From positions 1 to 22,526 of the forward strand of contig NZ_BDUD01000003.1 in the NCBI RefSeq assembly GCF_003113895.1: a DNA stretch of 22,526 bases, in the 5' to 3' direction. The notes under the pieces were generated by a model. The model saw only the letters and a list, made by a program, of their open reading frames with translations. It made no database searches and was not told where the DNA came from. The position numbers and the translations under genes are program-made. Source of the stretch: Nostoc commune NIES-4072. Lineage in GTDB: Bacteria; Cyanobacteriota; Cyanobacteriia; Cyanobacteriales; Nostocaceae. Below are positions 4,128 through 7,152 of this stretch, piece by piece (the stretch's first letter is position 1; the number at the start of each line of letters is the position of its first letter).

Positions 4128-4276
4128 GGGAGCAACGCGAAAAAGTGAGATCGGGGTTTAGTTCTCAATTACACCCCTATATTCTCAACAAAATCTGGTT
4201 TTTTAGTTGCGATCGCATCCTGAAACAAGCTATATACGTCCCAGATTTTAGCACCTCACAAAATCGCGTTGCTCCC
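4128..4276 (+). mobile_element. 149-bp MITE, copy 1
   Basis: It begins GGGAGCAACGCGA and ends with the exact inverse TCGCGTTGCTCCC. After a 4-base mismatch (AAAA against TTTT) the match continues for five bases (GTGAG), giving 18 of 22 matching terminal positions. Inside are an inverted pair AAAATCTGG/CCAGATTTT and one HIP1 site. It is identical in sequence to the three other copies (7004, 9623, 15708). One 49-codon frame is open throughout but has no start of its own. The flanks CTTCACGAT and CCTAATACT do not match, so there is no target duplication. The right edge lies 45 bases beyond the nifH stop. Confidence 0.92.
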
Positions 4277-4321
4277 CCTAATACTTACTTTGTATTTAGC
4301 ACCTGAGTTTAAACGAGAACC

Positions 4322-5287
4322 TTACTTTTTATCGCTACCGGAAACTATTTCTACGTTTCCTTTTTTCAGTGCTTCTAATGCTTCACCTTCAGCATCTTCT
4401 TGCTTCTTAGCAGCATCTGCTTGGCTAATTAGTTTGGCAGCATTTTCTTCACTTTCAAGAATACCGAATTCAATCAACAAATCTTCTAGTTCATCCATTT
4501 CGATGGGTGTGGGAACGGCGAGATTTGTATTGTTGATAATCTTGTCTGCTAGTGTGCGATATTCATTAGCTTGGTTGCTGTCGGGTGCGTACTCATTTAC
4601 AGTCATCCGACGCAATTCGGCGTGTTGCACGATGTTGTCACGGGGGACGAAGTGAATCATCTGGGTACTTAATCTGGCTGCTAAGGTGCTAATCAGTTCG
4701 TCTTCCCGGTCAGTTTTACGGCTGTTACAAATTAGCCCACCCAAACGTACACCACCAGTGTGAGCATATTTGAGAACGCCACGAGCAATATTGTTAGCTG
4801 CAAACATTGCCATCATTTCACCAGAGGTAACGATGTAGATTTCTTGCGCTTTACCTTCACGAATTGGCATCGCAAAACCACCGCATACAACGTCGCCCAA
4901 TACGTCGTAGGATACGAAATCTACGTCTGAGTAAGCGCCGTTTTCTTCAAGGAAGTTAATGGCGGTGATGATACCCCGACCGGCGCAACCTACACCAGGT
5001 TCTGGCCCACCAGATTCTACACATCTGATATCCCGGAAACCGGTGATTACCACTTCTTCAAGTTCGATATCTTCCACAGCACCCCGTTCAGCAGCTAAAT
5101 GCAGTACGGTAGTTTGAGCTTTACAGTGCAAAATCAAACGGGTAGAGTCAGCTTTGGGGTCACATCCGACAATCAAGATGCGTTTACCCACTTCTGCCAT
5201 TGCAGCAAGGGTATTTTGAGAAGTGGTAGATTTACCAATACCACCTTTACCGTAAAAAGCAATCTGTCTAATTCTTTCGTCGGACAT
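4322..5287 (-). CDS. nifH: Nitrogenase iron protein (dinitrogenase reductase)
   Basis: 321 residues. The ATP-binding P-loop GKGGIGKS is at 13-20, switch I DPKADSTR at 43-50, and the two 4Fe-4S ligands are Cys101 (GVGCAGRGI) and Cys135 (GDVVCGGF). Arg104 is the residue ADP-ribosylated in other bacteria. The homodimer passes electrons, with ATP hydrolysis, to the dinitrogenase component. All key residues are present, so it should be functional. It is longer than common NifH (about 295): residues from about 280 form an extra Glu/Lys/Ala-rich tail ending GSDKK. AGGA lies about 9 bases before the ATG. No nifD, nifK or cofactor gene is adjacent, so this is a stand-alone copy. In Anabaena variabilis a stand-alone copy (vnfH) serves the vanadium enzyme; with a VnfR-like regulator next door this is a candidate for that role, but sequence alone does not separate NifH from VnfH. 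Confidence 0.96.
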
Positions 5288-5361
5288 GATAATTTATCCT
5301 GCAATTGTTTGTTTGGTGAGTCAATCGGTTTATGAGGCATTGGTACTGTGTGCCTACCGAA

Positions 5362-5395
5362 GGCGTTGGCACTTTGTGCCTACCGGAGGTACTCG
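5362..5395 (+). repeat. 34-bp repeat upstream of nifH, unit 1
   Basis: The unit starts GGCGTTGGCACTTTGTGCC and goes on to ACCGGAGGTACTCG. It contains the perfect hairpin GGCAC-TTT-GTGCC. It matches unit 2 (5440-5473) at all but two positions. Just after it lies a second palindrome, CTGTAAAATTACAG. Confidence 0.7.
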
Positions 5396-5439
5396 CGCTG
5401 TAAAATTACAGCAGTGACCTTATGTAGAACGTCATTGGA

Positions 5440-5473
5440 GGCGTTGGCACTTTGTGCCCACCGGAGGTGCTCG
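5440..5473 (+). repeat. 34-bp repeat upstream of nifH, unit 2, inside a 9-bp inverted repeat
   Basis: Same unit as 5362-5395, with C for T and G for A at two positions. It is enclosed by TGTAGAACG (5423-5431) and its exact inverse CGTTCTACA (5472-5480), so the transcript of this stretch could fold into a long hairpin with the GGCAC/GTGCC stem inside. Confidence 0.7.
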
Positions 5474-5831
5474 TTCTACAGCAAAAAGAGTCCGAAGAAA
5501 GAACATATTCAAGTTGTGGTCAGTTTTCGTTGGTCATTAGTCATTGTTTTTTCTGACTAATGGCTAGAGCAATAAGACATCACTCAAGGAATATTGCAAG
5601 TATTACCATCCGCTTACTTAAATGATTTCTCTAGCGGTAGTAATACCAATTGGAAAAAAGAAAGCTACAGATTCCAAGCCGGAAACTCAAATTGAAATCC
5701 GAATTACGAATTGAGCATTATCAGTTGTTGTAATCAGAAAGAAGGTTGCTCATACCTAAAGAGTGGTTGCAGCAGGATTTAAATTTACGCCAAGTTTCCC
5801 TAAATCACACAACCAACCATTGCAATCCACT

Positions 5832-6965
5832 CTAAACAGTCGCTACAACTTCCCCAATTTTGCTGATATCATAACCGCCAAGAATTTCAAATTGGGAGTG
5901 AACCATTCGATGTCCCAAAGTACTGAGCAACTGCTGTACTGGTGCTTCTTCTAAATATTCCTTGAGAATCACCAAATCATATCGTGACTGATGTAAAGGG
6001 ATAAATCCCAGCCCAAAGGCGGTAGCGACAGATGCCGTACTTATACCTGCATCGGCAACTCCCCTGACTACGGCTTGGGCAACATCTTGGTGAGTTTTGA
6101 GTATATTGTCAAAGCCCTGAACAGCATCGAACGGTATCTGCTCCTTTTGGAGTGTTTGTTCCAAAAGCATCCGACTACCAGAACCGATTTCACGGTTAAC
6201 AATAGTCGCTCCCCCAGCCACTAAGTCACTAACTGTTCTAATTCCCATTGGGTTCCCTGACTTTAACAAAAGTCCCTCCTCCCAAACACCAAGGGTAATC
6301 AGAACTGCTTCCCTCCCAGCCAGAACATCTCGAACAAAGGGAGTATTATACTCACCAGTCTCAGGATCGTACAGATGCATCCCAGCAATGTGCGCCTCAC
6401 CTCTGCATAGACTGTGCAATGCAGCCATGCTATTGGCGAAGTTATATTGAACTCGCAGTTGAGGATGCCAGCGTTCGGTGGCTCTTGCCCATAGTGAAAT
6501 CACAGGGGCACAACCAGCAATTACAACGGTGTTATGGAGTGTGTCGAGATTATCGTCTAAAAGACGGACTCGAACTTTATTTGTACCTGCAACACTTGTA
6601 CTTTCACCATCAGCCGGAATCATATCTTGGCGAAAAGCATCCTTACCAATTAAAGGATAAGCTATCCATTGTCCTCCTACACGAGCCATGCTAACTCGTA
6701 GTTGCTGACCATTAGGAACAGGTTTAGCAAGAACTGCTTCGATTTCAGGTAAATCCCGCTCTAACCAGAATAGATCCTCAACTTGACAGCCAAGCGCTTT
6801 GGCCAAGCGAAGTGTTATGGCTACTGAGGGAGCATATAGTCCCGACTCTACACCACTAATAGTCTGACGAGTCACACTAGCGATGTTAGCCAAATCTTGT
6901 TGGCTCATGCCTAAGCGAGTTCTAATCGACTTCAAGTTATTACGGAGGTCACTATCCTGCTTCAT
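5832..6965 (-). CDS. XRE-type regulator with C-terminal periplasmic-binding-protein-like domain
   Basis: 377 residues. An XRE-type helix-turn-helix occupies about residues 9-65 (IRTRLGMSQQDLANIASVTRQ, then ISGVESGLYAPS). Residues from about 125 to 350 form a ligand-binding region related to periplasmic binding proteins of the molybdate/tungstate type: VVIAGCAPVISLWA, ANSMAALHSLCRGEAHIAGMHL, VNREIGSGSRMLLE and GVADAGISTASVA. Proteins of this architecture sense a small ligand, often an oxyanion, and control transport or metal-dependent enzymes. In Anabaena variabilis the repressors VnfR1 and VnfR2 control V-nitrogenase genes in response to molybdenum; a similar role for nifH just downstream is an inference. 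The gene is intact, but its upstream DNA is only 38 bp before MITE copy 2, so its native promoter may have been replaced. Confidence 0.85.
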   Translation of the reverse strand: MKQDSDLRNNLKSIRTRLGMSQQDLANIASVTRQTISGVESGLYAPSVAITLRLAKALGCQVEDLFWLERDLPEIEAVLAKPVPNGQQLRVSMARVGGQWIAYPLIGKDAFRQDMIPADGESTSVAGTNKVRVRLLDDNLDTLHNTVVIAGCAPVISLWARATERWHPQLRVQYNFANSMAALHSLCRGEAHIAGMHLYDPETGEYNTPFVRDVLAGREAVLITLGVWEEGLLLKSGNPMGIRTVSDLVAGGATIVNREIGSGSRMLLEQTLQKEQIPFDAVQGFDNILKTHQDVAQAVVRGVADAGISTASVATAFGLGFIPLHQSRYDLVILKEYLEEAPVQQLLSTLGHRMVHSQFEILGGYDISKIGEVVATV

Positions 6966-7003
6966 TGGCTTTGTCTCTTAGTTTCAAAAAGCCGTAGCGG
7001 ATT

Positions 7004-7152
7004 GGGAGCAACGCGAAAAAGTGAGATCGGGGTTTAGTTCTCAATTACACCCCTATATTCTCAACAAAATCTGGTTTTTTAGTTGCGATCGCATCCTGAA
7101 ACAAGCTATATACGTCCCAGATTTTAGCACCTCACAAAATCGCGTTGCTCCC
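7004..7152 (+). mobile_element. 149-bp MITE, copy 2
   Basis: Identical in sequence and orientation to copy 1. Flanks TAGCGGATT (left) and CTCGTAATT (right) do not form a 9-bp duplication. The left side is 38 bp before the regulator start. The right side interrupts parB, whose reading frame runs six codons into the element before a stop. Confidence 0.92.

Follow-up and report, generated by a model that had tools for sequence, protein, structure and literature searches.

The window analyzed here is a whole contig of the Nostoc commune NIES-4072 assembly (C3; NZ_BDUD01000003.1; 22,526 bp) that carries four copies of a miniature inverted-repeat transposable element (MITE), identical to one another at 149/149 bases, two of which enclose a pair of nitrogenase-related genes. 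MITE copies 1 (4128–4276, + strand) and 2 (7004–7152, + strand) lie in the same orientation with a start-to-start spacing of 2,876 bp, confirming an initial annotation that had described direct, identical copies bracketing a nifH gene and its putative regulator. The genome comprises 8.2 Mb in 11 contigs, of which, from size and content, we take C1 (7.1 Mb) to be the chromosome and C2 (0.8 Mb) to be a plasmid. C3 is plasmid-like and is probably an incomplete plasmid, because its ends (window positions 1 and 22526) cut a TraD-like gene and a tyrosine recombinase gene and no terminal overlap of at least 30 bp is listed between them.

Both genes between copies 1 and 2 are intact and are read from the − strand. 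One (vnfH, 4322–5287, 321 residues) encodes a dinitrogenase reductase of the vanadium nitrogenase (V-nitrogenase) type and matches Pfam Fer4_NifH (1.1e-132) and, above the cut-off, NCBIfam nifH. Its protein is identical to that of Nostoc C052 at 320/321 residues and shares 95.0–99.7% amino-acid identity with VnfH from loci L031, L032, L033, L104, L106, L112 and L118, in all of which vnfE adjoins vnfH; identity to the products of nifH1 and the other nifH of this genome is 89.4% and 87.4%, respectively. The second gene (5832–6965, 377 residues) encodes a protein with HTH_3 and PBP_like domains, identical at 373/377 residues to its Nostoc C057 counterpart, and is predicted to be VnfR2 from its XRE helix-turn-helix and PBP-like domains and its place directly upstream of vnfH. 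Ratios of nonsynonymous to synonymous substitution (dN/dS) are 0.01–0.09 for vnfH (six relatives) and vnfR2 (five relatives). The gap between the two genes contains three short repeat units of ~35 bp each (5335–5473).

The DNA of the pair is ~92–93% identical to plasmids of Nostoc C052 and C057 and similar to a plasmid of Nostoc UHCC 0926. The entire interval between the MITEs (4277–7003, − strand) is 93% identical to the C057 plasmid p057_H, in which the order in gene direction is vnfR2–vnfH–vnfE–vnfN. Judged from sequence, the bracketed genes are thus the vnfR2–vnfH operon of a V-nitrogenase locus. The initial annotation had read them as a stand-alone nitrogenase-reductase cassette, a description that does not hold for an operon that mostly keeps vnfE and a conserved upstream block in relatives. 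V-nitrogenase genes on plasmids of C057 and C052 have been published (PMC6645180), and in Anabaena variabilis ATCC 29413 the gene for VnfR2 (ava4055) lies upstream of vnfH, with a promoter that serves both genes (PMC4284476).

Homology between the retained piece and its relatives stops at most 3 bases from the MITE edges. On the left, shared sequence begins within 3 bases of copy 1, and the inner flank of this copy, CCTAATACT, is vnfH-downstream DNA as found in relatives. On the right, the inner flank of copy 2, TAGCGGATT, is vnfR2-upstream DNA, likewise as in relatives, and the common sequence ends with CGGATT at 7003; beyond this point relatives and a vnfR2 relic on C1 have TAAATATTGCATC or variants of it, whereas the window has the MITE. 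Only 38 bp of the native vnfR2 upstream region remain before the start codon (6966–7003, − strand). The ~165-bp block that would lie beyond, which is conserved in 25 sequences (two of which, L033 and L128, read identically and probably represent the same plasmid) and in the C1 relic, is gone.

The outer flanks tell a different story. To the left of copy 1 lies a gene fragment (4024–4127, no strand assigned) that has a 100% identical copy at C1:2981112–2981215 and a 99% identical copy at C1:2833102–2833205, the latter continuing, uninterrupted by any MITE, beyond the point where copy 1 stands in the window. To the right of copy 2 lies a parA–parB remnant (7153–7998, − strand), 98.5% identical to a plasmid of Nostoc UHCC 0302, in which the MITE cuts parB after ~81 of 311 codons (311 in UHCC 0302) and the start of parA is lost too. 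Neither copy has a target duplication. The outer flanks, CTTCACGAT and CTCGTAATT, the latter inside parB, differ and belong to two different genes. The initial annotation had noted the mismatch and considered a composite-transposon jump unsupported, and we agree. A transposase acting in trans on a unit made of MITE 1, vnfR2, vnfH and MITE 2 could have come from a 1,493-bp element at C1:2829024–2830516, but there is no outer target duplication and the outer edges hold pieces of two different genes, which makes a jump of this kind extremely unlikely.

Relatives show what surrounds the operon elsewhere. A search of 99 genomes, this one included, gave matches in 69, many of them to ordinary nifH. 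We read 29 relative loci in windows of ±1.5 kb, a reach that accounts for some misses: the conserved vnfR2-upstream DNA is present in 26, the vnfE region in 21 and both in 18, and the MITE is in 0/29 by BLAST and by its 13-base end. Partial loss without this MITE is seen at L116, which has no vnfE region, and at L123, which has no vnfH. Among the best 80 of 120 loci with VnfR relatives in GTDB, where vnfE and vnfN were sought within 2.5 kb, vnfH lies downstream of vnfR in 50 (at L171 by a match of only 24 residues), 22 have no vnfH nearby (some of these may encode VnfR1) and 8 end too early; the gene after vnfH in the 50 is vnfE in 33 and vnfN in 1, with neither within 2.5 kb in 15 and the locus ending in 1. 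The exact 13-base MITE end occurs in none of these best 80 of 120 loci, and a search of genome contigs for the vnfR2–MITE junction, which may not include the records closest to this genome, gave 0 matches. The initial annotation had looked to relatives with the same neighbors and no MITE as evidence against its proposal; relatives do carry the pair without the MITE, but their neighbors differ from those in the window.

Partner genes of the V-nitrogenase were not found in the rest of the assembly either. Pfam PF00148 has seven matches, all on C1. Five lie at 6.95–6.97 Mb and form a nif-type set in which nifD is split in two; the two elsewhere we read as chlN and chlB from their length and place. 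VnfE and VnfN of Nostoc C057 reach at best 63 and 72% identity with the genes at 6.97 Mb, which are thus nifE and nifN and not their vnf counterparts. The PF00148 search therefore found no vnfDG, vnfK, vnfE or vnfN in the assembly; vnfG, which is fused to vnfD in A. variabilis according to PMC4284476, had no search of its own.

The MITE is 149 bp long, has terminal inverted repeats with ends GGGAGCAACGCGA.../...TCGCGTTGCTCCC, and contains no transposase gene. An exact 50-base pattern from it matches 56 times in the genome (C1, 10; C2, 41; C3, 4; C4, 1), and the same pattern read backwards matches 0 times, so the repeats are not chance. After one C1 copy with the same flanks as a C2 copy was merged with it, 55 distinct insertion sites were read, all identical over 149 bases, and the MITE is young, to judge by this identity. 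The ends of the 1,493-bp element on C1 match those of the MITE, and its protein matches NCBIfam transpos_ISKra4 (E 7.9e-17, 61.5 bits, below the cut-off of 205) and has no Pfam match; assignment of both elements to the ISKra4 family is tentative. A relative of the MITE that is 94.6% identical (L234:1623–1771) lies on pn1 of Nostoc UHCC 0926, a large plasmid that also holds a vnf locus with vnfE beside vnfH. By description rather than sequence, the MITE can be likened to Nezha, reportedly a short non-autonomous cyanobacterial MITE that Zhou et al. are said to have described in 2008. On C2, inverted copies at L022 (C2:34368) and L023 (C2:31943) lie ~2.3 kb apart, and their right flanks match when inverted, with one mismatch, which could mark a composite unit or be chance.

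Homologous recombination between direct copies of an insertion sequence or MITE leaves one hybrid copy with unequal flanks, and the intervening DNA is lost. Counting exact repeats of 8 or 9 bp, or of 9 bp with one mismatch, we find a target duplication at 29/55 sites (one of them with the mismatch): 9/9 on C1, 19/41 on C2, 1/4 on C3 and 0/1 on C4. Sites without a duplication therefore number 0/9 on C1 and 26/46 on C2, C3 and C4 together (Fisher p 0.001 when the tenth C1 copy, merged above, is included).

Where they can be tested, copies without a duplication mark lost DNA. Copy 4 in the window (15708–15856, + strand), which has none, joins 15707 to 15857 at a point where three Nostoc plasmids that share its gene order carry an extra 1.91–1.94 kb, which spans a DUF5131 gene together with a portion of the gene before it and the start of the one after it. 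Likewise, at the C2 copies L020 and L012, neither of which has a duplication, a CyRepA1 gene and a strawberry-notch gene are truncated where the MITE begins; L003 is uninformative as a junction test. Three copies with a duplication, by contrast, two of them examined as controls, sit in DNA that is uninterrupted in relatives. The sequences flanking L016 are contiguous across the MITE position in two UHCC 0926 plasmids (overlap 11 bases), those flanking L018 in one ATCC 53789 plasmid (overlap 13 bases), and ~60 bp on each side of copy 3 (9623–9771, − strand, inverted; 9-bp duplication TCTTTGGTG) in pn1 of UHCC 0926.

On balance, we favor a history in which MITE-linked deletions cut a vnf locus, presumably once resident on this replicon, down to an orphan vnfR2–vnfH operon, with copies 1 and 2 more likely marking where DNA was deleted than bounding a mobile cassette. 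Two MITEs with ISKra4-like ends, generating 8–9 bp duplications, would have inserted in the vnfH–vnfE gap and 38 bp upstream of vnfR2. Each could then have recombined with a further copy of the same MITE, removing the DNA beyond it, so that one side would have lost vnfE and whatever came next, and the other, now joined to parB, the vnfR2 promoter block and more. This would leave the orphan operon, its reading frames intact and its native upstream region gone, with none of the partner dinitrogenase genes found in the assembly. In contrast to deletion by recombination as generally understood, several plasmid genes appear to be cut here and a remnant of a nitrogenase operon is left behind.

The orphan operon is probably silent or driven by read-through. 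A promoter contributed by the MITE or the parB side was considered and rejected, as a scan of 6900–7400 gave no sigma-70-like site and no terminator, although such scans are weak evidence. Because the start of parA is also lost, read-through from parAB is doubtful. The operon is probably not expressed. Copies 1 and 2 could recombine once more and so delete the 2,876-bp unit altogether; nothing in our data shows such a loss.

Deletions linked to transposition itself, either one-ended or adjacent, rather than recombination between two copies, would create the same junctions and would account for missing duplications without any need for swapped flank partners. We regard this alternative as unlikely but deserving of weight. 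The absence of duplication-free sites on C1, set against their abundance on the other contigs and the density of copies there, favors recombination between copies, although the same bias would be expected if deletions in the chromosome were selected against.

The pairing of flanks across the genome bears on whether the operon arrived at copies 1 and 2 instead of being left between them. The initial annotation had proposed that one crossover between the copies would release a circle able to insert at any resident MITE. A circle, or another exchange between replicons in which vnfR2–vnfH was excised at copies 1 and 2 and joined the plasmid at a resident copy, fits their direct orientation and identity, as well as inner flanks that resemble those of relatives beside outer flanks that are foreign. 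Entry at a copy with an intact duplication, however, predicts equal outer flanks, which are not observed, so the mismatch that speaks against a composite jump counts against simple circle insertion too. As about half of the copies outside C1 have no duplication, the flanks of a resident copy could already have differed. Among the 55 sites, there is neither an empty site (CTTCACGAT–MITE–CTCGTAATT) nor a donor scar (CCTAATACT–MITE–TAGCGGATT), and the absence of swapped flank partners led us to reject a reciprocal exchange between copies that retained both products. A single match, with one mismatch, emerged among the 2,970 off-diagonal flank pairs: the left flank CTTCACGAT resembles the right flank CTTCACCAT of L068, which we take as chance because L068 has its own 8-bp duplication, CTTCACCA. 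Arrival by circle or exchange is therefore rather unlikely. Of the earlier recombination proposal, rearrangement at the MITEs is indicated by the flanks, whereas mobility as a circle is not supported.

The missing part of parB introduces a further complication. In UHCC 0302, parB continues for another 693 bp, of which only the last 42 are matched in this genome, at C4:1618–1659 (95%), directly beside the C4 MITE; the other 651 bp, between the C3 and C4 pieces, were not found in it. C4:770–1659 resembles the parB end and following DNA of UHCC 0302 at 86% identity, compared with 98.5% for the C3 part, and may come from a related parB. Both pieces adjoin the right side of their own MITE, with unequal flanks (CTCGTAATT and CTCTCTCAG), and thus do not represent opposite sides of a single insertion. 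Either one parB was struck by two MITEs, or the cuts fell in two related parB genes. On C4, where the parB end and the DNA after it lie beside the MITE (L099:770–1808), a 261-residue reading frame runs through the MITE into the parB end.

That a parB start on C3 and a parB end on C4 both adjoin a MITE hints that contigs have exchanged DNA, and would suit either the arrival of the operon from elsewhere or an assembly error in which identical 149-bp repeats caused contigs to be joined wrongly. Such an error would also fit the small size and open ends of C3 and C4. A mis-join, however, should place the true right flank of each left flank at another site, and the single imperfect match found involves a copy with its own duplication; nor would it explain parB pieces that share a side and have unequal flanks, or the 651 bp between them that were not found. 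We consider a mis-join very unlikely. A broader proposal is that recombination between MITEs is an ongoing process that cuts and recombines plasmids while leaving the chromosome intact, with vnfR2–vnfH one of several transposase-free, MITE-bounded blocks carried between replicons; this we view as quite unlikely.

Several observations weigh against deletion as the origin of the orphan operon. First, no relative has an intermediate form, and no plasmid was found with vnf genes beside this parB. Second, the 15/50 vnfR–vnfH pairs from GTDB with no vnfE within 2.5 kb indicate that separation from vnfE also occurs without MITEs. Third, the low dN/dS values are unlike those expected of long decay, though they mostly reflect earlier history. 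Fourth, C3 is open at both ends, and vnf genes could sit on unassembled DNA. Fifth, ~850 bp that follow parB in UHCC 0302 also lie beside the C4 MITE, so not all outer DNA was lost, and the parB end on C4 shows that some rearrangement moved DNA, joining or splitting replicons, rather than losing it. Finally, direct pairs are not scarce among neighboring C2 copies (19 in the same and 21 in opposite orientation), a distribution that is otherwise uninformative.

Some known systems resemble the arrangement in the window. As in A. variabilis (PMC4284476) and Nostoc C057 and C052 (PMC6645180), the regulator has an N-terminal helix-turn-helix and lies directly upstream of vnfH in a two-gene order. 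Unlike those loci, the pair in the window lacks the upstream block, is bordered by a MITE at each edge and has no other vnf structural gene that we could find. The MITE-flanked class 1 integrons of Acinetobacter likewise consist of a gene block with an identical MITE at each end (PMC10969869). In contrast to the integrons, the outer flanks in the window are unequal, and the MITEs appear to be junctions of deletion or exchange rather than the ends of a moved unit. Literature searches, read mostly at the level of listings, showed no report of MITEs beside vnf genes and no paper pairing vnfH and MITE as whole words.

More broadly, V-nitrogenase genes appear to be often lost and gained among cyanobacteria (PMC6645180). 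The window would represent a concrete intermediate of vnf loss with base-exact junctions, in which a locus has been reduced to two genes at identical mini-transposons. Moreover, the contrast between C1 and the other contigs for the same young MITE would allow repeat-driven plasmid remodeling to be counted within one genome. There is also a caution: a nifH gene between identical repeats need not be a mobile cassette.

Traces of other vnf loci are found on C1. In addition to nifH1, the genome has a lone nifH at C1:135143–136036 (L101:7144–8037, 297 residues) with degenerate vnfR-like DNA upstream, which is possibly a trace of an older vnfR–vnfH arrangement. An old remnant at C1:2503479–2503911 (L054), in which part of vnfH is joined directly to vnfR2-upstream DNA at 82–89% identity, appears to be a further lost vnf locus. 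The vnfR2 relic, which includes the upstream block, lies at C1:2822066–2823392 (L047:10067–11393) and is interrupted by a different element of ~145 bp with a 9–10 bp duplication. This relic differs from the window at 1 position in 791 bp and at 10 positions in the next 381 bp (binomial p 1e-4), an unevenness that suggests recent gene conversion.

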